A DNA stretch of 64,000 bases from Collinsella aerofaciens ATCC 25986 (GTDB taxonomy: Bacteria > Actinomycetota > Coriobacteriia > Coriobacteriales > Coriobacteriaceae): the NCBI RefSeq assembly GCF_010509075.1, contig NZ_CP048433.1, forward strand, positions 1,116,001 to 1,180,000, written 5' to 3'. The notes under the pieces were generated by a model. That model saw only the letters and a list, made by a program, of their open reading frames with translations, was not told the origin of the DNA and ran no database searches. Position 1 is the stretch's first letter. Every line of letters starts with the position of its first letter. Both the position numbers and the translations under genes were made by a program. Shown here piece after piece: positions 3,097-30,238 of the stretch.

Positions 3097-5220
3097 CTAG
3101 CACTGCTTTATAAGATCGAGCACCGCGGGAATGTCATCGGCATTACGAAGAGCAACATAGGTCGGTAGGCCTGGGCCAAATCCACCCTGCGTACGTTTGT
3201 CCTGGCACATGTCCTCTGGATCAATTAGGTCATCCACGCTCTTTGCCAGGCCGACGGCAATCCAGCCACCGTTGCTGGTCCTACCTTCTAACACGGCATG
3301 CAGTTTTCGCTTGCCCGACCTGAAGCCTACATAGTACTTGGCTATGTAGGACTCCCACGAAGGGTTACCACTCAGAACGGACTCGCGCACCTCATCGAAA
3401 AGCTTCTGGTTGAGCCCACCTTCGGCAAAGGTGGGGTGGTTCTCATGCAGAGTCCAGACAGGAGCCTCGTCAGGCTCCCCACGAGAAGGACGGTACTTGT
3501 CGACGACGTCTGCCGGAAGGTCGGGATACTTCCATATCTCGCACGCTTCTTTCGCCAGCTCGTCCGCGCGCTGCCCAATCTCTTCCTCACCCCATTTTTC
3601 ATGCGAGACAATCGATTTGTTTAGGTAGAGCGGGCTGCACTTAAATCCGACGTCAGGCAGATTGAGCTTGTCCGAGAACGACCGGTTTGAGTACTCCTGG
3701 TTGTAGCCCGTCAGCGTAAGATTTCCCAAGTTGTTGCACAGCCTGTCGTGGACGTCTTCCCAGTTCTCACCAAGCGATTCCTTCCAGCCGTGCTCATCAT
3801 CAATCGTCTGGGGCATGATGTGCTCGATCTGGTAATCGTCGGCTGAGATGGACTCCTTCGGGTGGTGCCAGTTCTCCATGCGTTCCAGGTAATAGCGCTT
3901 TTTAGAGAAGCGGTTGTAGCAGTCACGCGCCTTAAACTCCTCGACAAAATGCTCGTCTGTCGGAAAGTATGCGGTCATACCGCTGCTGTGGATAAGGAGC
4001 ATCGCCGTAACGTACTCCTCGATATCGTCCTGCTGCTCGAGATTGCGATACATGCCGGCAAAGAAATTATTTAGGCCCGTGGTAAGTCTGCCGCAAACCG
4101 CTCGCCTGAACAGAAACGACTCGATAGTCTCGCAGATACGTAAAAACGCATTGCGGTCTAGTCCATTCCCCTCGTAAACCGAATAAAGCAACATTAAGAG
4201 GGGCCTTATCTGCTTCACGTCGAGGCTTACGATTCTGCCGAACACTCGGCGCAGTCCGTCGTCCTTCTCCTTACCAAGGAACAGACTGGCGTATCTATGT
4301 GCATACCCGCGCAGCTCCTTAAGCAGGCCCTCGGTGTCACCATCGTAGTCGTCGGCGAAATAGCGCTTAAACTCGTAGTAGGCCTCGTTCTCCTTCGGCA
4401 TCCTATTGGGAACTTTAAGCCACAGCCAGTACCAGATAAATGCATTGAACTCGTCCTCGCCGCCTTTTCCGAACAAGCACTCGAGTGGATGCCAATAACC
4501 CTCATAAAGCTTGGTCTGTTCGTCGTTGGGAAGCGACATTAGAACGTAGTTACGGATGAGGTCAATGGGCGTGAGCGGCTTGCCCTTGGAGTTCATGGAC
4601 TCAAATATGAGCTGGGCATTATCAACGCCAGCGGTGAGCTTAGTGTCGATGACCTGCACGCGGTTTAGCCCCGCCCAAAGCCTTGCCGGGTCAAATGATT
4701 TACCACGCATCTTCTCGCGGAAGAACGCATGGTTCTCGACAATCCGATCCGATTTTTCATCTGGCACGGGAGCCCCAGACACGATGGAGAACAGCGTCTC
4801 TTTATCGTCCTGCGAGAGCACCAGCTTGTAGCGTGCCAGACCGTTGTAGTCGTCATCGTTAAAGAGGTAATTTTTCCTCAGCGCCGAGATTTTGAGGTCG
4901 CCAAGGAAGCCAGCCTTGTCGGGGTTGCTCTCCAAATAGTCAGCCAAAGCTGCAATCATCAACGAAAACGTCGTCATGCGCTGCTGTCCGTCAATCAGAA
5001 GCACGCGCGAAATGCTCGTGGCAGAGCTCTCGGACTCGGGGATATAAAGCATTGACCCCACGAAGTGCGATACGCCATCACGACCCGCTCGCATGACGTC
5101 ATCCCAAAGCACCTCGCACTCTTTTACACTCCACGAGTAAACTCGCTGGTACACGGGAATGACAAACTGCATCTTCGCCACGCCCATAAGGTCGAGCAGA
5201 TTCGCCTCGGTTGCTTTCAT
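3097..5220 (-). CDS. DUF262/DUF1524 (GmrSD-like) nuclease-family protein
   Basis: 707 residues with the organisation of GmrSD-type type IV restriction proteins and relatives. The N-terminal DUF262 domain has VIPVYQRVYSW (residues 20-30) and the nucleotide-binding signature LLIDGQQRMTTF (about 74-85). The central part has the DUF1524 HNH-type nuclease signature EHIMPQT (about 466-472), followed by NNLGNLTLTGYN near 500. The last 100 residues resemble the DUF5655/DUF4268-type tail seen on such proteins. GmrSD proteins cut modified DNA; substrate and activity here are unknown. The gene sits next to a type I restriction-modification locus, which supports a defence role. The start at 5220 follows AAAGGGG. 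Confidence 0.85.
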   Translation of the reverse strand: MKATEANLLDLMGVAKMQFVIPVYQRVYSWSVKECEVLWDDVMRAGRDGVSHFVGSMLYIPESESSATSISRVLLIDGQQRMTTFSLMIAALADYLESNPDKAGFLGDLKISALRKNYLFNDDDYNGLARYKLVLSQDDKETLFSIVSGAPVPDEKSDRIVENHAFFREKMRGKSFDPARLWAGLNRVQVIDTKLTAGVDNAQLIFESMNSKGKPLTPIDLIRNYVLMSLPNDEQTKLYEGYWHPLECLFGKGGEDEFNAFIWYWLWLKVPNRMPKENEAYYEFKRYFADDYDGDTEGLLKELRGYAHRYASLFLGKEKDDGLRRVFGRIVSLDVKQIRPLLMLLYSVYEGNGLDRNAFLRICETIESFLFRRAVCGRLTTGLNNFFAGMYRNLEQQDDIEEYVTAMLLIHSSGMTAYFPTDEHFVEEFKARDCYNRFSKKRYYLERMENWHHPKESISADDYQIEHIMPQTIDDEHGWKESLGENWEDVHDRLCNNLGNLTLTGYNQEYSNRSFSDKLNLPDVGFKCSPLYLNKSIVSHEKWGEEEIGQRADELAKEACEIWKYPDLPADVVDKYRPSRGEPDEAPVWTLHENHPTFAEGGLNQKLFDEVRESVLSGNPSWESYIAKYYVGFRSGKRKLHAVLEGRTSNGGWIAVGLAKSVDDLIDPEDMCQDKRTQGGFGPGLPTYVALRNADDIPAVLDLIKQC

Positions 5221-5319
5221 TTACGCTTGTCCCCTTTCTTGTTTACGCCGCTTGCGGTCAGTCCCCCACTGAACGAAAGACGCTAAAGACCAGAGCATCG
5301 AAGCGCTGGAGCAACCGGG

Positions 5320-6801
5320 ATGCTCGTCTCACTAGATTTTACAACGCTTGTCGCGAATACAGTTGAAAGCCAATCCGGTTCCGATGGCTCCCCCTATGAG
5401 AAGCACGTGGACACTAAGGGACGCGTTCTGAGCGACAAGTGCATCGCGGACGAGGTTCCGTTTGGGATTCCGGAAAGCTGGGCCTGGGCGAGATTTAGTG
5501 AAGTCATTGGAATTGCAGCGCGTTTGGTCGACCCGTTGAAATATCAGGACTTTCCTCATATCGCGCCTGACAACATCCAAAAAGGCACCGGAAAGCTCTT
5601 GTTCTGTCATAGTGTTAAGGCCGACGAGGTTAAGAGCGCCAATCACCTGTTCTCTGCAGGACAGATTCTCTATTCGAAGATTCGTCCAGCTCTTCGAAAG
5701 GCGGTTATCGCCCCTTTTGATGGGCTGTGTAGTGCGGATATGTATCCGCTCAACACCAAGCTGCAACCTGAATATGTCCTCACGGTTCTCCTCAGCAATT
5801 TCTTCACTGAGGAGACGCTTAAGGGTGATACGCGTGTCAAAATGCCAAAGACTAATCAGAAGTCATTGAACGTCATTCTGGTCCCAGTTCCGCCTCTCGC
5901 CGAGCAGCGCCGCATCGTCGAGCGGGTGAACGAGCTCATGCCCCTGGTCGAGGAGTACGGTGAGCTCGAGGACGCCCGCGAGGAGCTCGACGCCGCGCTG
6001 CCCGGCCGCCTGCGCAAGTCGGTGCTGCAGCTGGCGGTTCAGGGAGGGCTCGTGCCGCAGGACCCCGCAGACGAGCCCGCCGGCGTTCTGCTGGAGCGCA
6101 TCCGCGGGCAGCGCCGGCAGCTCGTGGCCGAGGGGGAGATGAAGGCCCCGAAGGGCGGTGAGTCGATCATCTTCGCCGGTTCCGATGGCCGCCGCTATGA
6201 GAAGAGGGTGGACGCCAGGGGCCGCGAGTCCGAGCCCGTCTGCATCGAGGACGAGATCCCGTTCGAGATACCCGAGAGCTGGGAGTGGGCGAGGCTCGAG
6301 AGCGTCACCACTTACATCCAGAGGGGCAAGTCGCCGAAGTATTCGACCGTCGAGAAATACCCCGTGATCGCCCAAAAGTGCAACCAATGGAGCGGATTCT
6401 CCGTGGAAAAGGCGAGGTTCATCGACCCAGCCACCGTATCCAAGTACGCGGATGAGCGGATTCTGAAGGATGGTGACCTTCTCTGGAACTCGACCGGCCT
6501 CGGCACGTTGGGCAGGATGGCGGTCTATGACTCGGCGAAAAACAGATACGGCTGGGCCGTCGCCGACAGCCACGTGACGGTGATCAGGACGCGGGAAGAT
6601 TGGCTTGATCACCGGTTTGCCTTCGCCTATTTCGCGGGGCCGTCAGTCCAGTCTGAAATTGAAGACCAGGCAAGCGGCAGCACGAAGCAGAAAGAGCTTG
6701 CGCAGGAGACGGTCAGAAACTACCTAATCCCAGTTCCGCCCCTCGCCGAGCAGCGTCGCATCGTTTATGAAGTTGACTGGCTTTTCAAAATACTTGTCTA
6801 A
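5320..6801 (+). CDS. hsdS: silent hsdS cassette (type I specificity subunit, N-terminally truncated)
   Basis: Open frame of about 493 residues carrying two target-recognition domains (about 30-185 and 320-480) separated by the conserved PVPPLAEQRRIVERVNELMPL helix region. Compared with the expressed copy at 10044-11606 it lacks the first ~55 residues (MKAKDLKNSILQMAIEGK onward). Homology starts abruptly at the 28-bp repeat 5376-5403, and codons before it match no HsdS. It has no convincing ribosome site. It is therefore read as a donor of alternative recognition domains that reach the expression site by inversion. The downstream recombinase and the opposite orientation of the expressed copy fit known phase-variable type I systems. 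The C-terminus ends LAEQRRIVYEVDWLFKILV. Confidence 0.85.
   Translation: MLVSLDFTTLVANTVESQSGSDGSPYEKHVDTKGRVLSDKCIADEVPFGIPESWAWARFSEVIGIAARLVDPLKYQDFPHIAPDNIQKGTGKLLFCHSVKADEVKSANHLFSAGQILYSKIRPALRKAVIAPFDGLCSADMYPLNTKLQPEYVLTVLLSNFFTEETLKGDTRVKMPKTNQKSLNVILVPVPPLAEQRRIVERVNELMPLVEEYGELEDAREELDAALPGRLRKSVLQLAVQGGLVPQDPADEPAGVLLERIRGQRRQLVAEGEMKAPKGGESIIFAGSDGRRYEKRVDARGRESEPVCIEDEIPFEIPESWEWARLESVTTYIQRGKSPKYSTVEKYPVIAQKCNQWSGFSVEKARFIDPATVSKYADERILKDGDLLWNSTGLGTLGRMAVYDSAKNRYGWAVADSHVTVIRTREDWLDHRFAFAYFAGPSVQSEIEDQASGSTKQKELAQETVRNYLIPVPPLAEQRRIVYEVDWLFKILV
5376..5403 (+). repeat. 28-bp inversion-site repeat, copy 1 (5' of silent TRD1)
   Basis: Begins CGGTTCCGATGGC and ends CTATGAGAAG. 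It is identical to the reverse complement of 11397-11424 in the expressed hsdS and matches 25 of 28 bases at 6177-6204 (plus) and 10569-10596 (minus). All four copies encode GSDG-x-x-YEK in the same reading frame, so recombination between opposite copies keeps hsdS open. The role as crossover site is inferred. Confidence 0.8.
5888..6288 (+). repeat. 401-bp inverted repeat, copy in silent hsdS
   Basis: Identical, base for base in my comparison, to the reverse complement of 10485-10885. It covers the central conserved region of HsdS from PPLAEQRR to the IPESWEW segment, and it includes the internal 28-bp site at 6177-6204. Perfect identity beside fully divergent recognition domains indicates recent or ongoing exchange. 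Confidence 0.92.
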
Positions 6802-6834
6802 CTGTTTTCATGACCTCGTCGAAAGGAAGATGTC

Positions 6835-7629
6835 ATGAGAATGTTTGTACAATACTTGCAGGAAAAGGGTTATGCGGAAAACACTGTTGATTCTTATTCC
6901 TTTGCAATATGCCAGCTTATCGATAAAACTCAGTCTCTAACAAACCAGTCACTTCTTGCGCACAAAGAGTGGCTGGTTTCTTCATTCGCTCCGAAAACGG
7001 TTAACAACCGCATCGGCGCAATTAACACCTACCTTGATTTCATCGCTTTCGATGGAATCCGACTCAAAGGAGTGCGAATTCAACAGAAGCCGTTTCTCGA
7101 CAATGTCATCAGCAATGAACAATACATGCAGTTAATCAGCGGCCTGAAGCAAGACGGTGATTGGTTTTGGTATTTCATCGTTCGCTTTCTTGGTTGTACG
7201 GGTGCGAGAGTAAGTGAGTTAAGACAGTTCAAAGTAGAACACGTTACCGCTGGATATATGGACATTGTTTCAAAAGGCCAGAAGCTCAGGAGAATTTGGA
7301 TACCTGACTCTTTGCGTGAAGAAAGTCTTACATGGAAAGCCAAGCCAATGAATGGCCTTCTATTTCCAGGCAAAAACGACAACGCGATTACTTCGCGCGG
7401 CATATCCGTAGGGTTGAAGCGTGCCGCACTGCGCTATGGCGTCGACCAAGACGTCGTATACCCGCATTCATTTCGGCACTTGTTCGCAAAAAACTTTATC
7501 AACCGCAACCCAGATATTTCACTGCTTGCTGATCTTATGGGACACGAAAGCATTGAGACAACGCGAATCTATCTGCGGCGCACTGCCGATGAACAGCGCG
7601 CCGCGGTTGATGAAGCAGTCAATTGGTAA
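6835..7629 (+). CDS. tyrosine recombinase (XerC/D-like), putative hsdS invertase
   Basis: 264 residues: an N-terminal SAM-like DNA-binding domain (about 1-85) and a catalytic domain with the tyrosine-recombinase residues R125 (GARVSEL), H211-x-x-R214 (HSFRH), H237 (GHES) and nucleophile Y246 (TRIYLRR). It lies between two inverted hsdS copies, where dedicated recombinases are found in phase-variable type I loci. No phage structural genes or att sites are nearby. Base composition is lower in GC than its neighbours. Its last codons overlap the tail of the pre-insertion expressed hsdS on the other strand (stop of that frame near 7619-7621). Family certain; role inferred from position. Confidence 0.9.
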   Translation: MRMFVQYLQEKGYAENTVDSYSFAICQLIDKTQSLTNQSLLAHKEWLVSSFAPKTVNNRIGAINTYLDFIAFDGIRLKGVRIQQKPFLDNVISNEQYMQLISGLKQDGDWFWYFIVRFLGCTGARVSELRQFKVEHVTAGYMDIVSKGQKLRRIWIPDSLREESLTWKAKPMNGLLFPGKNDNAITSRGISVGLKRAALRYGVDQDVVYPHSFRHLFAKNFINRNPDISLLADLMGHESIETTRIYLRRTADEQRAAVDEAVNW

Positions 7630-7826
7630 GAGCAAATACTTCGGTGACTCTAGAAACAATTCGTTTCTGCTCGCTGGCCGGGGGAACAGTGTTAGCGCCG
7701 GGCGATTTTAGCCGCTAATAGTCAAACGATTTTGACCAATCCCGGTCACCGAATAATGGCCACCGTGCCTCCCCGCCGCCACTACGCTGGTGGTGCCAAC
7801 ACGCCGGCGTTAGGAGGACCATTGAG

Positions 7827-9134
7827 GTGAACGAGAGACACGATGACCTACAGGAGATTATAGACGCGGCGCTCCGGGAGATGGCCGCGGAGGAGGGCGA
7901 CGGGTTCGACCCGCAGGCATGCAACCTCGCGGAGTTCTGCAGGAGGACGGGGCTCACCCGCTCCCGCGCGAGGACGGTCAGGGCACACGGGTTCAGGGCC
8001 CTGCCCCACGGGAACAGCGGGAGGAGGGCCGCGCCGGGCGTGCTCGCCGGCCACACCGGCCTGGTGGACGACCTCCTGCGGAAGGGCGTCACCAACTCGC
8101 AGGTGATATTCGAGCGGCTGCTCGGCCAGGGCTACGCCGGCGGCCTCACCACGGTGAAGACCTATATCGCCGCGCACCGGGACCTCGTGCCCGCGAAGAG
8201 GCGGCAGGCGGCCCCGCAGGGCTGCCGCGGCCAGCGCTTCAGGACGGCGCCCGGAGAGGCCTACCAGATGGACTGGGGCTTCGTCGCGGTCGAGCGCCCC
8301 GGCGGGGAGCGGGCGCGGATCGCCTGCTTCGCCATGGTCTGCCACCATTGCGGGGGCGCCCACGTCGAGTTCTTCCCGAACGCGCGCCAGGAGAACCTCC
8401 TCATCGGGATGCTGCACGCGTTCTCGGCGCTGGGCGTGCCCGCGACCGTGCTCACCGACAACATGAAGAGCGTGGTCGTCCGCCGCGATGCCGACGGCCG
8501 GCCCGTCTGGCAGGCCGACTACGCCGAGTTCATGGGCGTCGTCGGCTTCCGCACCAGGCTGTGCAGGCCGCGCCACCCCTATACGAAGGGCAAGGTGGAG
8601 AGGCTCGTCCGCTTCGTGAAGGGGAACTTCCTCGCGGGAAGGTCCTTTACCGACCTTGACGCCCTCAACCGGGAGGCCGCCCTCTGGTGCGCCGAGCAGG
8701 GAGGCCGCTGGCGGCGCGCGGCGGCATGCGTCCCGATGCGCGAGCACGAGGCGGCGTGCTCGGCGAACACCAGGCCGCTCGAGGTCACGGCCGAGGTCGA
8801 GCGGTACCTGTGCCCGCGCCGGAAGATCTCCTTCGACGGCTTCGTGAGCTTCGAGGGGCACCGCTACGGCGTGCCCTACTGGTACGTCCGCCGCGAGTGC
8901 AGGGTGAACCGGGAGGGGCGCGTGGTGCACATATACAGCGACGACCTCTCCCGCGAGCTCGTCGCCCACGCCGTCGGCACCGGCGCCGACAGCTGGTGCG
9001 AGGGGCAGTGGGAGACATCGCCGGCGCAGCCCGAGGAGCTGCCGACCCAGCCGGTGGGGACCGTGGTCGAGCAAATCGCCCCGCCCAGGACGAAACCCGG
9101 TTTCGAGAGGTTCGACTTCGGGAGGGCCGAATGA
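7827..9134 (+). CDS. istA: IS21 transposase IstA
   Basis: 435 residues with a GTG start after an AGGAGG ribosome site. An N-terminal helix-turn-helix region (about 25-80) precedes an rve-type DDE integrase core with D149 (QMDWGF), D211 (LTDNMKS) and E258 (KGKVERLV). It catalyses cut and strand transfer at the element ends together with IstB. The istB start codon overlaps its stop (ATGA), giving translational coupling. It appears intact. Confidence 0.95.
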   Translation: MNERHDDLQEIIDAALREMAAEEGDGFDPQACNLAEFCRRTGLTRSRARTVRAHGFRALPHGNSGRRAAPGVLAGHTGLVDDLLRKGVTNSQVIFERLLGQGYAGGLTTVKTYIAAHRDLVPAKRRQAAPQGCRGQRFRTAPGEAYQMDWGFVAVERPGGERARIACFAMVCHHCGGAHVEFFPNARQENLLIGMLHAFSALGVPATVLTDNMKSVVVRRDADGRPVWQADYAEFMGVVGFRTRLCRPRHPYTKGKVERLVRFVKGNFLAGRSFTDLDALNREAALWCAEQGGRWRRAAACVPMREHEAACSANTRPLEVTAEVERYLCPRRKISFDGFVSFEGHRYGVPYWYVRRECRVNREGRVVHIYSDDLSRELVAHAVGTGADSWCEGQWETSPAQPEELPTQPVGTVVEQIAPPRTKPGFERFDFGRAE

Positions 9135-9958
9135 TGGCGGGCGCGGGGGCGAGCCCCTACGAGCTCGCGAGCGACGCCGCGTCGAGGCTCGGGATCGCCG
9201 TCGGGGCGGAGGAGCTCGCGACCCTCGCCTCGGACCTCGACCTCGGCGACGGGGAGATGGCCGCCGTGGCAGCCACCTTCTCCTACCTTGCGGAGAAGAG
9301 GAGGCTCGCCTCCATCGAGACGCTGCTGAGGCTGAGCAGGCTGCCCAGGCGCGAGCCCAAGACCTTCGAGGGCTTCGACTTCTCCAGGATCCAGGGCCGG
9401 GACGCGGCCGCGCTGGGCAAGCTCCCGTCGCTGGCCGACCTCTACGCGCACCGCAACGTCGCCTTCGTCGGGCCCGGCGGCATAGGGAAGACGCACCTCG
9501 CGCAGGCCTACGGGCGCGAGTGCTGCATGCGGGGGCTCAAGACCTACTACATAAAGGCGACCGAGCTCAGGGACAGGTTCCAGAAGGCCGTCCAGCGGGG
9601 AAACACCTCGCGGGTCGTCTCCTCGCTCGTCAAGCCGTCGTGCCTCATCGTTGACGAGGTGGGGAGATGCGTCTACGACAGGCCGTGCACCGACCTGTTC
9701 TTCGATGTCGTCGACAGGCGCTACGAGAAGGAGGGGCCGAACGCGATGGTCCTCACGAGCAACATCGCCCCGAGCGGGTGGGATGAGTTCTTCACGGGCG
9801 ACGACACGCTCCTCTGCGCCCTCGACAGGCTGTTCGACAAGGCGTCGGTGTTCGTGATGCGGGGCCCGAGCTACCGCGGCAGGGAGCTTGACACCTACTC
9901 GGTGGAGGCCGTCCCCCAGGCGGTGAAGGTGAGGGGGATCCAGCCCGAGGGGATGTAG
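9131..9958 (+). CDS. istB: IS21 helper ATPase IstB
   Basis: 275 residues, DnaC/IstB-type AAA+ ATPase. Walker A is GPGGIGKTH (about 113-121) and Walker B is CLIVDEVG near residue 174. IstB regulates target choice and stimulates IstA. The ATG overlaps the istA stop codon by four bases. It appears intact and is followed by the right end of the element with its internal repeats. Confidence 0.94.
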   Translation: MMAGAGASPYELASDAASRLGIAVGAEELATLASDLDLGDGEMAAVAATFSYLAEKRRLASIETLLRLSRLPRREPKTFEGFDFSRIQGRDAAALGKLPSLADLYAHRNVAFVGPGGIGKTHLAQAYGRECCMRGLKTYYIKATELRDRFQKAVQRGNTSRVVSSLVKPSCLIVDEVGRCVYDRPCTDLFFDVVDRRYEKEGPNAMVLTSNIAPSGWDEFFTGDDTLLCALDRLFDKASVFVMRGPSYRGRELDTYSVEAVPQAVKVRGIQPEGM

Positions 9959-10043
9959 GAATGCGATAGGAAAGTCATAGATGCGGGCGTGTTGGCTAAA
10001 ATGGGTCGGCCGGGATTGGTCAATCTCGGCCGACTATATTTGG

Positions 10044-11606
10044 CTAAAATAATCCGGCGCTAACAACAGGAACTAGAGCGCGATACAGCCTGTTGTCATT
10101 GATTGCCGGATAGGCAACCCCCTTCGCGTTCTCATTGGCATTTGCATAAGAGTCAAAGCTAGGAGAAACCAAAAAGTAGAGAAGAAAACTAGGAAGGAAT
10201 CCGTCAAGACATGAAAGGACAGCAAACCCAGTACTTGCGATGGGCTTAATATTAAAATCCTTATCTACGATACAGGCATTATGCAAATAAGGGCGGACGG
10301 TCGCATAGAGCACATCATTCTTTGCGACTAGCTTTCTTGCTCGTGAGGGCGCGTCAGCTGCATTTATAACAGTTTCTTGTCCGAGCTTTTGGTTCACATT
10401 GTCAATCGACGAGATGTCGATATAGGCAAAACGCGCCTCAGGCCTCTTCTGCCCGCGATTCAAGACAAGAGACCCTAAACGACGCCACTCCCAGCTCTCG
10501 GGTATCTCGAACGGGATCTCGTCCTCGATGCAGACGGGCTCGGACTCGCGGCCCCTGGCGTCCACCCTCTTCTCATAGCGGCGGCCATCGGAACCGGCGA
10601 AGATGATCGACTCACCGCCCTTCGGGGCCTTCATCTCCCCCTCGGCCACGAGCTGCCGGCGCTGCCCGCGGATGCGCTCCAGCAGAACGCCGGCGGGCTC
10701 GTCTGCGGGGTCCTGCGGCACGAGCCCTCCCTGAACCGCCAGCTGCAGCACCGACTTGCGCAGGCGGCCGGGCAGCGCGGCGTCGAGCTCCTCGCGGGCG
10801 TCCTCGAGCTCACCGTACTCCTCGACCAGGGGCATGAGCTCGTTCACCCGCTCGACGATGCGGCGCTGCTCGGCGAGAGGCGGAATCGGAAGAAATAGCT
10901 CTTTTAGCACTGCTGCTTTGATTCCTTTTGCGGTCGTCCCCGTGGCATGATCCTTAACTTGAATTTGGAACAGTGGAGATAGAATTATTTGGCAGAACAG
11001 GGCATTGTCTGGACCAACTGTGCCGTAATTCTGAAGGGTAATGACACGCTGTCCACAGCTGCAACGTTTCATTTCGCATATCGCGCAATACCCCATCGGG
11101 GCTTCGGTTGTAAACAGCAAATCGCCACGGTGGGTCTCTCCGCGAGACAAGCGTGTTGCATATTCGTCTTCTGAAATATACTCCTCGCGTGTGTAATCAA
11201 TATAGCCTTGGCGAATGTTGCTCGCAGTCATTAGTCGAACACCTGAAGGTGATTTGTGAGGTGTTTTACCCCTGTAATCAATGAAGTTATATACGGTTTC
11301 CAGCCTTGCCCAAGCCCACCCCTCGGGCAGCTCCTCAAACGGCACTTCGTTCGCGATGCACTTATCGCTAGTCACGCGACCCTTGGCATCCACCTTCTTC
11401 TCATAGGGGGAGCCATCGGAACCGATATAGATAATGCTCTCCCCGCCCTTCGGGAATTTAGCCTTACCCTCAGCAATAAGCTTATGCTTCTCTTCACGAA
11501 TACGCTCAAGCAGGACGCTTGCAGGCTCATCACTCGGGTCTTGTGGAACGAGCTTTCCCTCAATCGCCATTTGCAGGATTGAGTTCTTCAGGTCTTTTGC
11601 CTTCAT
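10044..11606 (-). CDS. hsdS: type I restriction specificity subunit HsdS, expressed copy, C-terminus cut by IS21
   Basis: 520 residues in the present frame. HsdS sets the DNA target of the HsdM/HsdR complex. The start MKAKDLKNSILQMAIEGK follows hsdM directly (the ATG abuts its stop), so the two are co-transcribed. Two recognition domains (about 75-235 and 375-510) are joined by the 401-bp repeat region. The frame ends VPVVSAGLF because the IS21 element at 7690-10065 replaced the final ~20 residues (PPASEQKRIVSRVTEVFALTN, recoverable beyond the element). Host sequence ends at 10066. The lost tail is part of the second conserved helix, which normally contacts HsdM, so function may be impaired. 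Confidence 0.92.
   Translation of the reverse strand: MKAKDLKNSILQMAIEGKLVPQDPSDEPASVLLERIREEKHKLIAEGKAKFPKGGESIIYIGSDGSPYEKKVDAKGRVTSDKCIANEVPFEELPEGWAWARLETVYNFIDYRGKTPHKSPSGVRLMTASNIRQGYIDYTREEYISEDEYATRLSRGETHRGDLLFTTEAPMGYCAICEMKRCSCGQRVITLQNYGTVGPDNALFCQIILSPLFQIQVKDHATGTTAKGIKAAVLKELFLPIPPLAEQRRIVERVNELMPLVEEYGELEDAREELDAALPGRLRKSVLQLAVQGGLVPQDPADEPAGVLLERIRGQRRQLVAEGEMKAPKGGESIIFAGSDGRRYEKRVDARGRESEPVCIEDEIPFEIPESWEWRRLGSLVLNRGQKRPEARFAYIDISSIDNVNQKLGQETVINAADAPSRARKLVAKNDVLYATVRPYLHNACIVDKDFNIKPIASTGFAVLSCLDGFLPSFLLYFLVSPSFDSYANANENAKGVAYPAINDNRLYRALVPVVSAGLF
10485..10885 (-). repeat. 401-bp inverted repeat, copy in expressed hsdS
   Basis: Reverse complement of 5888-6288 with no mismatch seen. 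It contains the 28-bp site variant at 10569-10596. Homologous or site-specific exchange here would swap only the second recognition domain. Confidence 0.92.
11397..11424 (-). repeat. 28-bp inversion-site repeat, copy in 5' part of expressed hsdS
   Basis: Reverse complement of 5376-5403 with no mismatch. It encodes GSDGSPYEK just before the first recognition domain. Exchange with 5376-5403 would swap both recognition domains and flip about 6 kb, including the recombinase gene and the IS21 element. Confidence 0.8.
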
Positions 11607-13085
11607 CTACGCCTCAATCCCAAGAATCTCGCAAATACGAGCAAGCTTCTGGTCAATCTCGGCATCGAGCTTAGCGCGCTCTTCTTTGTAGTTCCTGATC
11701 AGTTCGTCAGGCGGTAAGATCTCCTCTTCCTCGTGAGGATAGCCGCACACGTCAAAGTTAAAACCGCCGTCTCGCAACTCGTCAACCGTATAGTACTTGG
11801 CCTTGGGATTGCCGTCTTCCTCGATATCCCGACGGTTCTCCCACCATTCCTTTACAGGTGCAAAATGTTCGATCCTAATGGGCTTGGTCTTAGAGAAGTG
11901 TTTATACCCCTCGGGCATGTCCATGCGATAGAACCAAACGCCCTCAGAGGCCCCCGTATTATCGAAGAACAGAACGTTAGTAGTGATGCTCGTGTACGGA
12001 GCGAAAACACTCTGTGGAAGGCGCAAGACAGTATGCAAGTTCATGTCCTCAAGCAGGCGACGCTTGATCTCCGTCTTTGCACTATCCTGGCCAAAGAGAA
12101 AACCATCCGGAATGATAACAGCAGCGCGGCCGCCTCGCTTAAGACGATAAAGAATGAGTCCAAGGAATAGATCTGCGGTCTCGGAGCTACGGAGTGCAAC
12201 AGGGAAGTTGTTTTGCACCGATGCACTCTCGGACCCGCCATAGGGCGGGTTCATAAGTACGACGTCAAACTGGCCGTCAGGCTTGTGCTTCCACTCGCGA
12301 ACATCCTTCTCGAGAGAGTTATCGTGAAAGACTTCAGGATTATCAATATCGTGCAACAGCATGTTGGTCACGCACAGCAGGTAAGGGAGCTGCTTCTTCT
12401 CGATGCCGTAGACCGATCTTGCATAGAGTTCACGATCGGCTGGAGTCTGAACCTGGGAGTCGAGAATCTTGAGGGCGCTCGTCAAAAAGCCGCCCGTGCC
12501 ACACGCGAAGTCAGCCACAGTCTCGCCGAGCTTGGGCGCAAGTGCCTGGGCCATAAAGTCAGTCACCGCTCGGGGCGTGTAAAACTCGCCGGCATTACCC
12601 GCGGACTGTAAGTCTTTCAGGATGGTCTCGTAAATTTCACCGAAGGCGTGGCGCTCTTTGTACTCGGTAAAATCAACCGACTCGTCAATCTCGTTGATGA
12701 CTTGACGAAGTAGAATCCCATCCTTCATGTAGTTGTTGGCGTCAGTAAAAGCAGCCTTGACGACGACGTGTCGCAAAGGCGCATCAGGTGCAAGCTCAAG
12801 ACTCTCAAGAGTCTTGAATAGATCATTGTTCACAAAGTCGAGAAGCTCATCGCCAGTAAGCGCCTTGCCGTCTTTCGCATCGTGCGCCCAGCTATACCAG
12901 CGCAGGCGCTCGGGGATGATGGACTGATAGGAGTCATCGTGAAACTCCCACTCCTGCTCCTTGGCATCGTAAATCTTGAGGAAGAAAAGCCAAGTCATCT
13001 GCTCAATGCGCTGCGCATCGCCATTGATGCCGGCGTCTTTGCGCATGATGTTCTGCAGGGTCTTTACGAGAGATCCCAGTGCCAT
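11607..13085 (-). CDS. hsdM: type I restriction-modification DNA methyltransferase HsdM
   Basis: 492 residues, N6-adenine methyltransferase subunit. An N-terminal HsdM helical domain (about 5-140) is followed by the SAM-binding motif I FACGTGGFL (about 191-199) and catalytic motif IV NPPYGG (about 278-283). With HsdS it methylates, and with HsdR it restricts. It lies 19 bp after hsdR and immediately before hsdS on the minus strand, forming an hsdR-hsdM-hsdS operon. The frame is intact and full length for the family. Since hsdR is broken, it may act as a stand-alone, possibly phase-variable, methyltransferase if HsdS still works. Confidence 0.95.
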   Translation of the reverse strand: MALGSLVKTLQNIMRKDAGINGDAQRIEQMTWLFFLKIYDAKEQEWEFHDDSYQSIIPERLRWYSWAHDAKDGKALTGDELLDFVNNDLFKTLESLELAPDAPLRHVVVKAAFTDANNYMKDGILLRQVINEIDESVDFTEYKERHAFGEIYETILKDLQSAGNAGEFYTPRAVTDFMAQALAPKLGETVADFACGTGGFLTSALKILDSQVQTPADRELYARSVYGIEKKQLPYLLCVTNMLLHDIDNPEVFHDNSLEKDVREWKHKPDGQFDVVLMNPPYGGSESASVQNNFPVALRSSETADLFLGLILYRLKRGGRAAVIIPDGFLFGQDSAKTEIKRRLLEDMNLHTVLRLPQSVFAPYTSITTNVLFFDNTGASEGVWFYRMDMPEGYKHFSKTKPIRIEHFAPVKEWWENRRDIEEDGNPKAKYYTVDELRDGGFNFDVCGYPHEEEEILPPDELIRNYKEERAKLDAEIDQKLARICEILGIEA

Positions 13086-13104: not shown

Positions 13105-14510
13105 CTATGCGATGTAGAGCTCGTCCTCGAGCATCTGCGCTGCCTGAATGTACTGTTGTTTGCCGCCGAATGCGGCGACGATCTTCATTGGGCTGCCAAA
13201 CCGACGGAATTCCTCGAGGTCGAGGACGTGGGTGTCGTCCAAGTCTACGAGGTTCGACGTCGCATATTTGTCGAGAAGCGCTTCAAGGACCTCACGCGCG
13301 ACGCCGGCATACTCATAGAGCACGCCCTTTTTCTTGACACTATTGGCTCTCTCGCTGCGCGTAAGAGGTCTCTGGTCGTAAGCAATGTGGCAAATGAGGT
13401 CAAAGTCGCTCATTTGCTCCTGTCCAGTCTCGAGCCGCAGCTCATCCAGGAATACGCCACGCGCGCGCAGCTCATCGATAATCGCTTGTTTCTTATGTTC
13501 AGAGTTCCACGCCGCTAGGAAGTGGTCAAGAGTGTCGTATTCGCCGAGAATGTTTTTTCGCGTATAGTCCTTAAGGCTCTCAGTTACAAGAAGGCCATCG
13601 GAGGAGTAATACTGCACCATCTCCGACACTACATAGACGTCGGCCCCATGAACGTGATATTTCACATGGGAGGACGGATCGTCCGGCGGCAATACGGGTG
13701 GGTCTACGATCGGAGACGGAGGCGGAACGGGACTGCCGCCATTGCCGCCGGGACCCGGATCCGCAATGGGGTCACCCGGATTAGGCTCAAACACAACAAC
13801 AGGTTCGCCATCAAACTCGGGATCTGCAAACAAACGCGATGCGTCACGAAAATCGAGGATGGTGAAATAGAGTTTGTCGTAGTCCTCACAGATACGGGTT
13901 CCGCGGCCGATAATCTGCTTGAACTCCGTCATTCCGTGCTCACCGAACTTGTTGTCGAGCACGACTACCTTACACGTCTTGCAATTAACACCAGTGGTGA
14001 GAAGCTTCGAAGTCGTAACGATGGTCGGGTATTTCTCGTCGGGGTCGATGAAGTTATCTAACTGAGCCTTACCTTCCCTGTCGTCACCCGTAATCTTCAT
14101 GATGTAGGTGGGGTGATCTCTTACGATATCGGCGTTCTCGTTTACAAGGGCACGTCGCATATTTTCGGCATGCTCGATGTCAACGCAAAAGACTATGGTC
14201 TTGGAGTAACGATCCGTCTCCTTTAGAAATTGAGTTATCCGCTTGGCAACTTCCTCGTAGCGCTCTTTGATGACAATCTCGCTGTCGAAGTCTTGCTTCT
14301 CGAAAACACGTTTGGGCAGAGCTTCGCCGCGATCATCTATGGTGCCTTCCTCAGTACGGTATCCGTAAATGTCGACGTTCAGCTTAGGACGAATAACTTT
14401 ATACGGGGCGAGAAAGCCATCCTCGATTCCCTGTTTAAGGGAGTAGGTGTAGACAGGTTCGCCGAAGTAGGTAATGTTTGAAACCTCTTCAGTCTCCTTT
14501 GGCGTAGCCG
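13105..14510 (-). pseudogene. hsdR: type I restriction endonuclease HsdR, 3' fragment
   Basis: C-terminal two-thirds of HsdR, about 468 codons. The protein resumes at ATPKETEEVSNITYFGEPVY, directly after helicase motif III. It carries helicase domain 2 with IVTTSKLLTTGVN and IIGRGTRI (motifs V and VI), a proline/glycine-rich linker (near 13680-13770) and an EcoEI_R_C-like C-terminal region. Upstream the frame continues only into the inserted IS256-type element. Joined with 18286-19210 minus one 8-bp target duplication, the two parts give a single in-frame gene of 777 codons, confirming simple disruption rather than drift. Confidence 0.92.
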
Positions 14511-14621
14511 GGTAGCGCACAGAGATGTGGTGTAAGAGGCGGGGCATGCCCCGCCTCCGCCCTTTCTTGAAAGGGAGGGGACACCGCCTAGAATTCGTCG
14601 TTGGAGTAATGAAGGTGACGA

Positions 14622-15302
14622 ATGGAAGGAAAGGCGATGCCCCAAGAAGAGAGTGTACTGCGCCTCGGCCGCGACGAGGCCCTCGAGGCGGCGAGGCTTT
14701 GGCAGGAGTGCGGCGACGCGCGCGAGTTCGCGTGCAGGGTGCTGGGCGGCGTGATGAACGCACTGATGGACTCCGAGGCCCAGCAGATGTGCGGCGCGAG
14801 CCGCAATGAGCGCAGCGACGGCAGGGAGAACAGTCGCAACGGCTACCGCCCCAGGTCGCTCAAGACCGCCGTGGGCGACGTGGAGCTCGAGATACCCAAG
14901 CTCAGGCACGGCACCTACTACCCCGAGGGCATGCTCGCGCGATGGTCGCGCGTCGACACCTCGGTGGCCGCCATCGTGCAGGAGATGTACGTGTGCGGCG
15001 TATCCACCCGCAAGGTCGAGCGCGTGGCGTCCAGGCTGGGCATATCCTCGCTGTCGAGCTCGGAGGTCTCGAGCCTCTGCTCCGACCTCGACGCCGAGGT
15101 GGCGGAGTTCCGCCGCCGCGACCTGTCGGGCACGCCGTGCTGCTACCTGTGGCTCGACGCCACCTACATGAGCTGCAGGGTCGGCTCGTCGGTCGTCTCG
15201 CAGGGCGTCGTGACCGCGATCGGGCTGGGCGCCGACGGGCGCAAGCACTTCCTGGGCTGCGACGTGGTCGACACCGAGAGCGAGGACTCCTGGGCGGCAT
15301 TC
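14622..15302 (+). pseudogene. IS256-family transposase, 5' fragment
   Basis: First 227 codons of a mutator-type transposase. The start could also be the ATG at 14637, which has AAGGAAAGG just upstream. The catalytic core begins with the first aspartate in YLWLDATYMSC. The frame is broken after DSWAAF by the nested IS21 element and stops a few bases inside it. The remaining part resumes at 17564 in the same frame; together they would make 444 residues, close to the family length. Confidence 0.92.
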
Positions 15303-15403
15303 TGTTAGCGTCAATCTATTTTTCACCAGTTTCGCTAAACAGGCGTGCCGTTCGCGCAAAGGCGGTTTCACCGGTTGCGCTAACGTATTTTCACCGATTC
15401 CGG

Positions 15404-16177
15404 TCACGGCTTGACGGGACCGTCCCTCGGCAGGTCCTTCAGCCTGTAGGACCTGCCCGTTATCTTGACCAGGTGGCAGTGGTGGCACACCCTGTCCGCG
15501 ATCGCGCTCGCCGCCACGTCGTCCCCGAACACCCTGCCCCAGCCGCTGATCCCCACGTTGGTGGTGATGATCGTCGAGCGCTGCTCGTAGCGCGTCGATA
15601 TCAGCTGGAACAGCAGGTCCGCGCCCGCGCTACCGACGTCGAGGTAGCCGAGCTCGTCGATGATCAGCAGCCTCGAGTGGGCGTAGTACTTGAGCCTCTT
15701 CTTGAGGATGCCGCGCGACGAGGCGTCCTCCAGGTCCTCGACGAGCCGGGCGCAGTCCACGAACCTGACCTCGCGCCCCGCCCTGACCGCCTCGATGCCC
15801 AGCGCGACGGCGAGGTGCGTCTTGCCCACGCCGGGGCTCCCCACGAACAGGACGTTCTCGGCCCGCTCGACGAACCTCAGGGTCGCGAGCTCCTCGATCT
15901 CGGCGCGCGGGACCGACGGCTGGAAGTCCCAGTCGAAGTCCGCCAGCCCCTTGACGTAGGGGAACCCCGACGACCGTATGCGCTGGCTGGTAATCCTGAC
16001 CTCCCGGGCGGCGACCTCGACGCGCGTCATCTCCTCGAGGGCGGAGGCGAAGCCCCGCTCGCCCGCGGCGACCATCCTCACGTAGTCGGGCAGGGACGCC
16101 GCCATCTCGTGCAGCCCGAGCGCGGAGAGGTTCGCCTGCGCCCTGATCGAGGGGCTACCCTCCGCGACGGCGCCCAT
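15404..16177 (-). CDS. istB: IS21 helper ATPase IstB (nested element)
   Basis: 257 residues, IstB/DnaC-like AAA+ ATPase with Walker A GSPGVGKTH (about 107-115) and Walker B LLIIDELGYLD (about 168-178). It is the canonical IstB form, closer to classical IS21 than the other IstB in this window. The ATG overlaps the istA stop by one base (TGATG). It appears intact. Confidence 0.94.
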   Translation of the reverse strand: MGAVAEGSPSIRAQANLSALGLHEMAASLPDYVRMVAAGERGFASALEEMTRVEVAAREVRITSQRIRSSGFPYVKGLADFDWDFQPSVPRAEIEELATLRFVERAENVLFVGSPGVGKTHLAVALGIEAVRAGREVRFVDCARLVEDLEDASSRGILKKRLKYYAHSRLLIIDELGYLDVGSAGADLLFQLISTRYEQRSTIITTNVGISGWGRVFGDDVAASAIADRVCHHCHLVKITGRSYRLKDLPRDGPVKP

Positions 16178-17409
16178 CACGCCCCTCCGAGCGAGTCGAG
16201 CAGCGCGAGGTTGGCGCGCGCGGCCTCGGCGATGTCCGCGTCGGCCAGGCCGCGCTTCCCCTCGAGGGCCTGCCCATAGTGGTCGGGGTCGTAGTTGATG
16301 GGCCTCGACGGCCCGGACGCGGCGTCGTGGACGGCGACCTCCTCGCCGGCCATCCTCACCACGACCTGGCCGCCGGGCATCGCTATGACGCTCACGCGCC
16401 GGCCGATGCAGCGCCTGGGCACGGACCACTCCCTGCCGGCGGCCCTGACGAGCATGGTCGGCGGGACGGTCTGGACGCTCACGTCGCCCACCATCGACTC
16501 GAGGAGACGGAGGTTCCCGATGGGTCGCAGGCTCTCCTTCTCCCGCATGAACAGCGCGTCAGGCGGCAGGCCGGTGGTGCGGTTCGGCTCCGAGTTTGCC
16601 TGGGCCTCGATCCGGGCCACCGCCTCGGCGAGGCCGCTCCACCCGGTGAACTCGCCGCCGTAGGCGAGCAGGCGGTTCAGGAAGCGGTTGGCCGACTCGT
16701 CCTTGCCCTTGGTCTGCGGCGAGCGCGGCGCGCAGAGCCTGAGCTCGAAGCCGGCCTCCCGCGCGAACCGCCACGCCCTCTCCTGCCTGGTCCTCCTGCG
16801 GCCCGAGACGGTCACCAGGCACGACATGTTGTCCGTGATGCACTCCTCCGGGACGCCGCCGAGGCGGGTGAAGGTGGCGAGCAGGCAGGACAGCAGGTCG
16901 TCGAGCGTGCGGCTCCTGACCGGTATGAAGCGGTGCTTCCGGGAATAGCCGAGCGTCGCGGTGAACACGCTGAACTCGAAGACCTCGCCCTCCGAGTCGA
17001 CGAGCCTCATGCCCTCCTTCCAGTCGAACTGCAGCTGCCTGCCCGGGGGCGTCTCGAACCGCGGGTGCGGCTCGCGGCCGCCCACACCCCCGAAGGGCAC
17101 GTCGCGGCCCCGGCACCATGCGGTGAAGGCGCCGTACCCGGGCAGCCCCTCCCCGCGGCCCTCGCGCAGGAACGCGTACACGGCCATCTTGGTCATCCCG
17201 GGCAGCTGGGCCTTCGCGCGGATCACCTCCTCGAGCGGGTCGAAGGCGCTGCCCCTCGCGGACCTCCCGTCGGCGGCGGCCTCGCCCTCCCGCCAGTACT
17301 TGGCGACCGTGTGCCGGTCCATGCCGTGCCTCCTCGCGATCTCGCTGAAGTTCGGCTTCGCGCCGGACCCCCTGTAGACGTTCAGCTCTCCCATTACGTT
17401 TCGCTCCAT
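16177..17409 (-). CDS. istA: IS21 transposase IstA (nested element)
   Basis: 410 residues. The N-terminal helix-turn-helix (NFSEIARRHGMDRHTVAKYW, about 20-39) recognises the element ends. The DDE core shows QFDWKEG, ITDNMSC and KGKDESANRF as the three acidic motifs. The start may be the second methionine (MGELNVYRG). It is coupled to istB downstream and appears intact, so this element may still be mobile. Confidence 0.94.
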   Translation of the reverse strand: MERNVMGELNVYRGSGAKPNFSEIARRHGMDRHTVAKYWREGEAAADGRSARGSAFDPLEEVIRAKAQLPGMTKMAVYAFLREGRGEGLPGYGAFTAWCRGRDVPFGGVGGREPHPRFETPPGRQLQFDWKEGMRLVDSEGEVFEFSVFTATLGYSRKHRFIPVRSRTLDDLLSCLLATFTRLGGVPEECITDNMSCLVTVSGRRRTRQERAWRFAREAGFELRLCAPRSPQTKGKDESANRFLNRLLAYGGEFTGWSGLAEAVARIEAQANSEPNRTTGLPPDALFMREKESLRPIGNLRLLESMVGDVSVQTVPPTMLVRAAGREWSVPRRCIGRRVSVIAMPGGQVVVRMAGEEVAVHDAASGPSRPINYDPDHYGQALEGKRGLADADIAEAARANLALLDSLGGA

Positions 17410-17563
17410 ATCCCGCTCCTCCCGGGTCGGATACCCGATCGGAGCATAGTTCCGTTAGCGCAGTTGGTGAAAGTACGTTAGCGGGGTCGGCGAAAGCGCG
17501 TTAGCGCATTCGGCGAGATGCGTTTGCGAAAGTGGTTAATTTTAGATTAGCGCTAACACATTC

Positions 17564-18217
17564 CTCGGCGGGCTGCGCGAGCGCGGGCTGGCCGGCGTTC
17601 GCCTCGTGGTCTCCGACAGCCACGCCGGGCTCGTGGCCGCCGTCTCGCGCCTGTTCCAGGGCTGCGCCTGGCAGCGCTGCGTGACGCACCTGCAGCGCAA
17701 CCTCCAGAGCGCCTGCTCGGGCAGGCCCGAGGACTCCAAGGCGGCCGTCAGGGACCTCGTGCATGCCGCGGTCTACCAGGACGACCCCGACCTCGCGCGC
17801 TGCGTGTGGGCCGAGGCGGCGCCCTGGGTGGCGTCGGTGTCCGCCAGGGCCGGCGAGGTCTTCGAGCAGGCCGAGGACTCCGCGCTGGCGTTCACGGCCT
17901 TCCCCAGGGCGCACTGGGCCAAGCTCCGCACCAACAACGTCCAGGAGCGCGCCAACCGCGAGATCAAGCGCCGCTACAGGGTCGTGCAGTCCTTCCCCTC
18001 GAGGGAGTCGATGCTGCGCCTGACGTGCGCGAGCCTCATGGAGACCGAGGGACAGTGGTCCCAGCAGCGCGTGTTCTCCGAGGCCTCGGCCGCCGAGGGC
18101 TTCGCCGAGCCCGCGGACAGGCCGGCCCCGACAGAGGGGAGGCGCCGCGCGCTCGGGCGGCGCGCCAGGGAGATAGTGGACGAGATAGTCGAGAGGCGCG
18201 GCCTCAAGAAGGAGTAA
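17564..18217 (+). pseudogene. IS256-family transposase, 3' fragment
   Basis: Remaining 218 codons of the interrupted transposase, starting LGGLRERGLAGVRLVVSDSH. It carries the second catalytic aspartate (VVSDSHAG), the CxxC/H signature region CAWQRCVTHLQRN and the catalytic glutamate in NNVQERANREIKRRYR. It lacks its own start. The right inverted repeat of the element follows at about 18250-18277. Confidence 0.92.
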
Positions 18218-18285
18218 TATCGGGACTTGCAGCGACGGACCTCAGGACGCTCTTACACCACGTCTGCGCGCGCCACCCGTAGCCG

Positions 18286-19210
18286 TCATACCGATTTGAA
18301 TTGCACAATTGAAATACTCAAGTACCTTACGCCATGCGGAGTCCGCCGCGGCGCTTCCGCGATGGCACTCGTCGACGATAATCAAATCGAAGAATTCCGA
18401 GTCGAACTCGCGGAATATTTCTTCACCGTTTTCTCCAACAAGCTGTTGGTAGAGCGAGAAATAGACCTCGTAAGCAGAATCGAGCTTTCGACCTACGACC
18501 TTGGTTGTAACCCTCTTGAGAGGCTTGAAATCGCCGTCTATGGTCTGATCGACGAGAATATTGCGGTCCGCCAGATAGAGAACCTTACGAACCTCGGTAG
18601 TCTGTCGCAAGCGATGAACGATTTGAAAAGCCGTAAAAGTCTTTCCCGTTCCCGTTGCCATAACGAGCAAGATGCGATTCTTACCTCGCGCAATAGCTTC
18701 AAGCGTACGATTGATGGCGATGCACTGATAGTAGCGAGGATGATTGCCGCCGTGCTCCTGGTAATACGGAGCGGTCACAATCTCCTGGCTATACGGATGT
18801 TCAAGCCCCTTAGCTTTTGAGTATCGTGTCCAAAGTTCCGCCGGAGTGGGAAACTCGTCCATGGCAAGAGCGCGCTCTTTCCCGGTAAGAAAATCGTGCT
18901 CAACAAAACCCTTTCCGTTTGAGCTGTACGCAAACGGAATATCGAGCAGCTGGGCATATCCCATCCCCTGTTGGAGACCGGCATCAACGGTGTGCTCCGT
19001 ATCCTTAGCCTCGACGATTGCGATAGGGATGCCCGGAGCATACATCAGAAGGTAGTCAGCCTTCTTCTTGTCTTTACGGGTGACCATACTTCCGCGCACA
19101 ACAATCTCGCCACTGGTAAAGAAATACTCAGTGAAGACTTGGGTATTGCGATCCCACGACTTCATAATCGCAGGATCAATGAGTTTAAGCCGTGTGTCAG
19201 ACTCGTTCAT
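18286..19210 (-). pseudogene. hsdR: type I restriction endonuclease HsdR, 5' fragment
   Basis: N-terminal part of HsdR. The nuclease domain has IAIVEAKD (about residues 70-77; E-x-K of the PD-(D/E)xK site). Helicase domain 1 has Walker A MATGTGKTF (about 180-188), the DECH box IVDECHRG (about 276) and motif III IGMTAT near 305, where the IS256-type element interrupts. The frame runs into the element and stops near 18242 after a short foreign tail. The intact gene would give 776 residues. Restriction by this system is therefore predicted to be lost while methylation may persist. Confidence 0.92.
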
Positions 19211-26586: not shown

Positions 26587-26598
26587 GGTGATTCCCTT

Positions 26599-27078: not shown

Positions 27079-27089
27079 AAGAGACTCGC

Positions 27090-30089: not shown

Positions 30090-30187
30090 AATGAGCTCCT
30101 CTCTGTAACGCCCGGCGAGACCGCGCGGCGGGCGCAAATACGGTGTAGCGCTAGCACAGCGCCGGCGACCCCGCGGAGGCCGCCTAT

Positions 30188-30224
30188 GCGCGCGCCGGAT
30201 GCGGCGAAACATCCGACGCGCGCG
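30188..30224. other. GC-rich hairpin between ssnA and ygfK
   Basis: GCGCGC and CGGATG pair with CATCCG and CGCGCGC around a CGGCGAAA loop. It lies right after the ssnA stop codon (30239) and has no T-run, so it is more likely an mRNA-stabilising or partial-termination element inside the operon than a full terminator. The remaining gap to 30090 holds only the ygfK ribosome site. Confidence 0.45.
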
Positions 30225-30238
30225 AATCTCCAGTTGGA

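Follow-up and report, generated by a model that had tools for sequence, protein, structure and literature searches.

Which of its near-identical sites does a recombinase join when a type I restriction-modification (R-M) locus inverts, and how is scrambling of the target recognition domains (TRDs) of HsdS avoided? The question is raised by a locus of Collinsella aerofaciens ATCC 25986, a genome of 2.46 Mb (labelled G000 in the comparisons). The window is the whole stretch of 64,000 nucleotides that was analysed (contig NZ_CP048433.1, positions 1,116,001 to 1,180,000 of the forward strand), and positions of the locus are counted from its first letter. Open reading frames (ORFs), Pfam matches and other profiles show there a minus-strand hsdR-hsdM-hsdS operon of EcoAI type, opposite it a plus-strand hsdS cassette judged silent from its position, and between the two a gene for a tyrosine recombinase. 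Very likely this is an inverting type I R-M locus of the PsrA/CreX type, in which the recombinase acts at four spacer-matched sites and four HsdS forms result. Such a DNA-inversion switch should change the sequences recognised by the methylating enzyme. The features that carry the argument are as follows.

5320..6801, plus strand: silent hsdS cassette (TRD1s, central region, TRD2s) with intact C-terminus; ORF, Methylase_S
10044..11606, minus strand: operon hsdS in the expressed position (N-terminus, TRD1e, central region, TRD2e), truncated and ending VSAGLF
6835..7629, plus strand: PsrA-family tyrosine recombinase of 264 amino acids (Phage_integrase)
5376..5403, plus strand: outer site of the silent copy, GGTTCCGATGG-CTCCCC-CTATGAGAAG, in the HsdS frame
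6177..6204, plus strand: inner site of the silent copy, GGTTCCGATGG-CCGCCG-CTATGAGAAG, in the HsdS frame
10569..10596, minus strand: inner site of the operon copy, spacer CCGCCG at 10579-10584, in the HsdS frame
11397..11424, minus strand: outer site of the operon copy, spacer CTCCCC at 11407-11412, in the HsdS frame
5888..6288, plus strand: first arm of the inner inverted repeat (central conserved region and inner site), 100% identity over 401 bp
10485..10885, minus strand: second arm of the inner inverted repeat, 100% over 401 bp
5376..5464, plus strand: first arm of the outer inverted repeat, 84% over 89 bp
11336..11424, minus strand: second arm of the outer inverted repeat, 84% over 89 bp

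The four 28-bp copies, which share one HsdS frame reading GSDG-x-x-YEK, make up two pairs and differ at 3 bases, all within the central 6 bp (CTCCCC in the outer pair, CCGCCG in the inner). The likeliest reading of the motif is a recombination site in which two arms, left and right, enclose a 6-bp spacer. An earlier note on this DNA, made by a model from the letters and ORFs, had located the four sites, the perfect 401-bp inverted repeat (with exact coordinates) and the recombinase between the facing hsdS copies, and all of these hold. It had remarked on the position of the motif inside coding sequence here, which is not peculiar to this locus: sites of the same form are in or at the hsdS genes of Streptococcus dysgalactiae, Enterococcus faecalis, Ruminococcus albus and Segatella.

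Is the 28-bp motif a DNA site or just the coding sequence of a protein motif? Among 395 genomes of the order the pattern TTCCGATGG-N6-CTATGAGAAG is found at 46 sites in 15 genomes, and since a reversed control pattern occurs in none of them, the site is not a chance one. Alignment of 51 sites from 16 genomes gives GGTTCCGATGG-N6-CTATGAGAAG, or a near form, in most. Four of the genomes (G034, G122, G244 and G295) entered through the exact-arm search and are no evidence of arm conservation; other sites were found at up to 7 mismatches, or by position and weaker scans. One genome, G100, has the form GGTGAGGATA(A/G)-N6-TTATGAGAAG, which we take to resemble E. coli dif. The arms of its silent inner site are GGTGAGGATAA and TTATGAGAAG, and it also carries an extra half cassette (L037, 7440-11858) with inner spacer CTCCTA and a site near 9421.

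If the motif were conserved for its amino acids, inversion might occur mainly by homologous or RecA-independent recombination across the long repeats, with the recombinase serving minor exchanges only. GSDGxxYEK-type motifs are indeed common to these HsdS proteins, the 401-bp inner repeat is identical, and pneumococcal recombination at 333-bp and 85-bp repeats persists without CreX according to passages of PMC6620402. As a general account this is nonetheless improbable. The arms are conserved at synonymous positions, and they are kept where the homology of the silent flank ends. At silent outer sites compared with the operon copy in 9 of 12 genomes, identity is 54/216 upstream (25%), 78/81 in the left arm (96%), 54/54 in the spacer and 89/90 in the right arm; the nine are those with upstream identity of at most 14/24, so that selection partly accounts for the low upstream figure, and G057, G131 and G348, with related upstream sequence, are left out. 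Upstream of the silent outer site at 5376 in the window the flank is unrelated to that of the operon copy (4/24 identical). Within the operon gene, outer and inner sites of 11 genomes have identical arms (209/209), spacers alike at 23/66 positions (35%) and flanks at 74–78%. In the twelfth, G100, whose inner right arm is degenerate, the arms agree at 14/19 and the spacer at 3/6, which brings the arms to 223/228 in 12 genomes. Without G034 the operon arms stand at 190/190 (10 genomes) and the silent flanks at 46/192 upstream, 69/72 in the left arm and 79/80 in the right.

Genomes devoid of the recombinase provide a further comparison. Of 12 genomes with a close hsdM, G085 and G244 lack it, and both have lost sites. 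G244 keeps its outer site and has lost the inner one. G085 (L110, 5321-6949), with the same spacer, CTCGTA, in both places, retains the residues GADGSYYERR in other codons, with 5 and 6 arm mismatches; it is a natural control in which the HsdS motif is kept and the DNA site is not. The idea that the motif is only a protein motif was rejected on this control. Because of the arms of the silent flanks, the identity of outer and inner arms, and the loss of sites in recombinase-less genomes, the arm-spacer-arm unit is, on this comparative evidence, a site in the DNA itself and more than a protein motif.

What, then, would determine partner choice? A tyrosine recombinase would act at the four sites within the two convergent hsdS copies, and strand exchange would need identical spacers, so that outer would pair with outer and inner with inner. 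Exchange between outer sites would move TRD1 and TRD2 together, that between inner sites TRD2 alone. The spacer would thus choose the partner, and fusions with three TRDs or with one would be prevented. In silico, HsdS has 520 amino acids in the sequenced state (truncated), 544 after inner inversion, 535 after outer inversion and 511 after both (truncated), while mismatched exchange would yield in-frame products of 811 amino acids with three TRDs or 268 amino acids with one. In Xer/dif and heterospecific Cre/lox recombination, two recombinase-binding arms surround a centre of 6–8 bp, at which identity of the partners is needed. The Collinsella sites resemble these in being arm-centre-arm; they differ in that they are coding, would invert rather than resolve, and have two natural spacer classes in one gene.

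The spacers of the order agree with this scheme. They are identical within the outer pair in 12/12 genomes and within the inner pair in 10/10 (9/9 plus G100), and outer differs from inner in 12/12 (11/11 plus G100); the counts leave out G129, G122, G244 and G295, which have a single site or no assignable pair, and G200 has three sites. Beyond the order, sites read by eye from printed stretches are also matched: GAAACC twice and CTCTCC twice in S. dysgalactiae (the operon inner site was not found in this reading of the stretch), TTTGCA twice and CTCTTA three times in R. albus, and TTCCTA twice and CAAGTA four times in Segatella.

Nine E. faecalis plasmids provide a natural experiment on past exchange: their five TRD modules and six flanks occur in 13 flank-TRD combinations, a sign that reassortment took place. 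TRD1 and TRD5 are the only modules adjoining the outer spacers TTTACA (15 sites) and TATCCA (2 sites, on one plasmid); next to the inner spacer CGCCTA (25 sites), TRD2, 3 and 4 alone occur. While flanks and TRDs reassort, the TRDs stay in their spacer class at 42/42 counted sites, these being sites with an exact right arm and 400 bases downstream in 9 of 11 matched Enterococcus records; as the nine plasmids are closely related, the sites cannot count as 42 separate events. Sequence thereby shows that the E. faecalis relatives have reassorted modules within spacer classes. Between flanks 4 and 5 and the operon inner site, common sequence amounts to only about 17–21 bp (CGCCTATTATGAGAAGT plus a few bases), yet these flanks carry TRDs also found at that site. 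Such a length appears short for ordinary homologous recombination, and the reassortment through these half-cassette flanks is a further point against the homologous account. The 42 sites and all Coriobacteriia pairs examined are consistent with the proposed spacer-selected pairing.

It might be countered that the four sites recombine freely and that selection against scrambled HsdS alone makes the pairing appear. The in-frame cross-pair products of 811 and 268 amino acids may indeed be selected against, and TRD families do change slots between species. This explanation is held to be very improbable. In 11 of 12 genomes spacers differ and arms do not (the 23/66 against 209/209 given above). In the silent E. 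faecalis stores, whose product is under weak selection, every TRD is of the inner class (12/12, flanks 4 and 5), and in one plasmid, L092, both outer spacers are TATCCA where other plasmids have TTTACA. The two sites of that plasmid (LR962290.1) are at 4104 and 9872, and its silent flank is a different one. The simple statement that any pair of the four sites recombines was rejected, given that the spacers differ and given the E. faecalis data.

The recombinase belongs to the PsrA family. It is 51.5% identical, over 100% of its length, to the annotated PsrA of S. dysgalactiae, and relatives on plasmids (48–52% identity) are beside hsdS in S. dysgalactiae, E. faecalis, R. albus, Segatella and Mycoplasmopsis. 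The blocks TGARVSE, KG-K-RR, PHSFRH and GHESIETTRIYLR are conserved in the 7 recombinases aligned, and presumably hold the catalytic residues (the Mycoplasmopsis enzyme, only 111 amino acids when read under table 11, was left out). Structure-solved relatives in sequence include XerC-like, XerD, XerA and XerH. In a sample of 396 genomes of the phylum three matched at E<=1e-40, all within the order, and no family member was found outside it. A scan of viral_contigs for the recombinase gave L010/L011 only (38%), with no hsdS, and one for the exact site gave 0 matches; the G016 and G040 recombinases (31–32%) had no hsdS match alongside.

How widespread is the arrangement among relatives? At E<=1e-45, 16 of the 395 genomes of the order are recombinase-positive, and 11 of these have the same layout of hsdR-M-S, recombinase and inverted silent hsdS with sites (G000, G025, G028, G057, G100, G127, G131, G200, G223, G235 and G348; that of G127 spans two contigs and that of G200 has one site deleted). 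The four-site architecture is absent from G129, which has a truncated recombinase and an hsdS with one TRD; G274 has hsdS pieces with no site within 7 mismatches, and in G219, G236 and G135 there was no hsdS match in the stretch examined. Alternative arrangements exist among relatives: besides the reassorted E. faecalis modules, the recombinase is opposite to the operon in 9 of the 11 genomes and in the same orientation in 2 (G057 and G235), as a flipping segment would predict. Across species, TRD families occupy both operon and silent places, and the TRD2s of the silent cassette here is 81% identical to the TRD2 of the G200 operon gene. The hsdM is quite different (28–29% identity) in G100, G034, G122 and G274; as the first three carry such sites all the same, the switch module occurs with more than one R-M lineage. 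The inner repeat, 100% identical within the genome, is 96.6% identical to that of G025, which fits continuing exchange or conversion there. Architecture, pair-matched spacers and conservation of the arms at the DNA level are thus borne out by comparison, from which we infer that this recombinase is the catalyst, that partners are chosen by their spacers, and that the segment inverts in this strain.

By the features compared, the system belongs with the SpnIII/cod locus of Streptococcus pneumoniae and its PsrA (CreX). The two are alike in hsdR-M-S, an inverted extra hsdS and a linked tyrosine recombinase, here of the PsrA family; the operon hsdS and its inverted silent copy carry inverted repeats in each of which the common short core recurs, as four sites with the same arms. 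In pneumococcus three inverted repeats act in PsrA inversion, inversions at IR2 and IR3 rely on IR1-like sequences, and the 15-bp repeat plus sequence just upstream is needed (passages of PMC7096588). All three repeats contain the 10-bp core ATTATGGGAA; the 5 bp that precede it read CTCTT in two of them, those of 333 bp and 15 bp, and GAAAC in the one of 85 bp (passages of PMC6620402). Core and upstream bases would fit the scheme of right arm, class-specific spacer and left arm; CTCTTA of R. albus and GAAACC of S. dysgalactiae may be compared. The Collinsella locus is unlike SpnIII/cod in its insertions in hsdR and operon hsdS, and in that both arms are shared by the two site classes. Passages on SpnIII/cod describe repeats and core, not a partner-selecting spacer, and the available text of PMC7096588 has 0 occurrences of "spacer". 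How TRD scrambling is avoided, and what the recombinase recognises besides the short core, is left unexplained in those passages.

The inverting type I R-M locus of E. faecalis (PMC7394358, in part) is alike in a linked recombinase/integrase, multiple hsdS genes and inverted repeats. The plasmid loci compared here, which are not established as the same locus as the one in that paper, also show matched spacers, and their recombinase is 52% identical to that of Collinsella; they differ in having five TRDs with half-cassette stores, and variable left arms. Type I R-M inversions are reported in 13 species, and in 3 of 19 Actinobacteria species, in the text available of PMC5903667. The main text of that paper, so far as available, does not contain the word Collinsella, and that of PMC7394358 names neither Collinsella nor Actinobacteria. 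The literature searched, which included few subscription journals, held no paper on phase-variable or invertible hsdS in Collinsella or on hsdS inversion in Coriobacteri-named taxa, and no statement of a spacer rule for such sites, though one may already be in print. If the rule is true, the allowed HsdS combinations are predictable from sequence.

Several points weigh against the reading of a spacer-guided recombinase switch. For this strain the evidence is one assembly, in which no inverted state was seen. Left arms are altered in G025 and G235, and half-cassette flanks of E. faecalis have the deviating left arms TATTCAAGTTT and TATTCATGTAC, and the requirement for a left arm may accordingly be a loose one. 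Variation in the right arm is seen at some sites of G100, R. albus, Segatella and S. dysgalactiae, and G200 has lost its silent inner site. The Mycoplasmopsis relatives lack this arm-spacer-arm site; in the plasmids L088 and L090 of that genus PsrA-like recombinases are beside hsdS with other repeats (TTAACACTAT..). Since a TRD family can be found in different slots in different species (inner in G131 and outer in G129, 90%; outer in G200 and inner in G223, 80%), slot fidelity does not seem absolute over long times, and other recombination appears to move TRDs. Inheritance from an hsdS duplication, together with homogenising conversion, could account in part for the matched spacers. Across the 401-bp inner repeat, homologous recombination could proceed with no recombinase, and recombination of the CreX-independent type at long repeats is kept as a rival for the inner pair.

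Does the switch still matter here, where the genes around it are damaged? The insertions and the remaining operon genes are these.

7619..7685, minus strand: displaced 3′ end of the operon hsdS, severed by an insertion sequence (IS); empty-site reading
7690..10065, plus strand: IS21-family element (istA, istB) in the 3′ end of the operon hsdS, with terminal inverted repeat TGTTAGCGCCGG and target site duplication ACAG
11607..13085, minus strand: hsdM, intact (N6_Mtase, HsdM_N), 98% identical to G025 hsdM
13105..14510, minus strand: C-terminal part of hsdR (its ORF continues to 14763 in insertion sequence), NF046051 EcoAI-type HsdR profile positions 311-767
14511..18277, no strand assigned: nested insertion in hsdR, an IS256/Mutator-family element split by a second IS21-family element, with an 8-bp target site duplication relative to G025
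18278..19210, minus strand: N-terminal part of hsdR, NF046051 profile positions 1-312

The element in hsdS is 2376 bp long with a 4-bp duplication. As sequenced, the gene encodes 520 amino acids ending ..LVPVVSAGLF, and the empty-site reading has 535 ending ..LVPVPPASEQKRIVSRVTEVFALTN, its displaced 3′ end reading ..VPVPPASEQKRIVSRVTEVFALTN; the intact relative in G025 ends ..IPVPPASEQKRIVSRITEVFALTN (in a longer stretch ..LIPVPPASEQKRIVSRITEVFALTN). In hsdR, the 8-bp duplication is seen against the uninterrupted G025 gene. The insertion contains the first part of an IS256 transposase and a second part matching Transposase_mut, and within it IstB_IS21, rve and Mu-transpos_C_2 matches mark the second IS21-family element (istB 15404-16429, istA 16177-17409). 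The system descends from a complete EcoAI-type type I R-M system, uninterrupted in G025 (hsdM 98% and hsdR 99% identical in protein, with no IS). Of the hsdR-hsdM-hsdS set, hsdM alone is intact here. With hsdR split and hsdS truncated, this copy can make no uninterrupted HsdR, and its HsdS is shortened in the sequenced state; because hsdR is split, restriction by this system has probably been lost, and the system is probably methylation-only at most.

These damages invite the view that the locus is a decaying remnant whose switch no longer matters, hsdR and the operon hsdS both being interrupted. This is unlikely rather than far-fetched. No damage is seen in the recombinase gene, hsdM, the silent cassette or any of the four sites, the two arms of the 401-bp inner repeat are identical, and inversion is predicted to yield a full-length HsdS of 535 or 544 amino acids. 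The genome has at least 7 full-length copies of the IS21 element at 100% identity, six of them on contig C1 and one on C2 (a lower bound with 40 of 108 candidates scored), which suggests a recent insertion or a recent burst of copies. If the locus is instead a working switch, inversion should also toggle between a damaged HsdS, ending VSAGLF, and an intact one. Such a switch is present, then, in a genome whose linked restriction gene is broken. On balance we favour, with some reserve, a wider statement: that PsrA-family switches in Actinomycetota, Bacillota and Bacteroidota hold TRDs in their slots by a 6-bp spacer code with common arms, the two non-matching spacers lying in variable residues of the HsdS motif; that the pneumococcal 15-, 85- and 333-bp repeats follow the same rule; and that here the IS makes a specificity switch partly an on/off switch of a methylation-only system.

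Against this background the earlier account of the locus needs amending. It had missed both insertions. The operon hsdS is in the expressed position, as it said, but intactness was rejected, ORF 10044-11606 being truncated by IS21 at 7690-10065. Its two pairs and up to four HsdS forms are supported; that 2 of the 4 predicted states lack the last conserved segment at the HsdS C-terminus, a consequence of the IS21 truncation, had been overlooked. The silent cassette, called start-less, has an in-frame ATG at 5320, 56 bases ahead of the site, which opens no HsdS N-terminus; as for its lack of a promoter, a consensus scan of 5150-5500 found 0 with 0.2 expected, which is weak evidence. Comparison lends good support to its central claim, an invertible type I R-M locus with a linked recombinase; inversion in the strain itself we infer from relatives.

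Adjoining the silent cassette is one more gene that recurs with it.

3097..5220, minus strand: GmrSD/DUF262 family gene (Pfam GmrSD_N and GmrSD_C)

At 93% identity it adjoins the silent cassette in G025 and G034 too, and since GmrSD-like matches recur near the recombinase loci of several relatives, the gene and the recombinase locus are possibly parts of one defence island. Upstream of hsdR two ATPase genes adjoin each other (DUF4143/AAA_14, 20592-21887, and ATPase_2/DUF234, 22073-23464, by Pfam). They are followed at 23809-33184 by a cluster with Pfam matches to a molybdopterin hydroxylase, a 4Fe-4S protein, a pyridine-nucleotide oxidoreductase, an amidohydrolase and a xanthine/uracil permease, which we take to be possibly one for purine degradation. 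Elsewhere in the genome two more Methylase_S matches about 5 kb apart (C1:2246016-2246363 and C1:2251412-2251906) probably represent another type I system.

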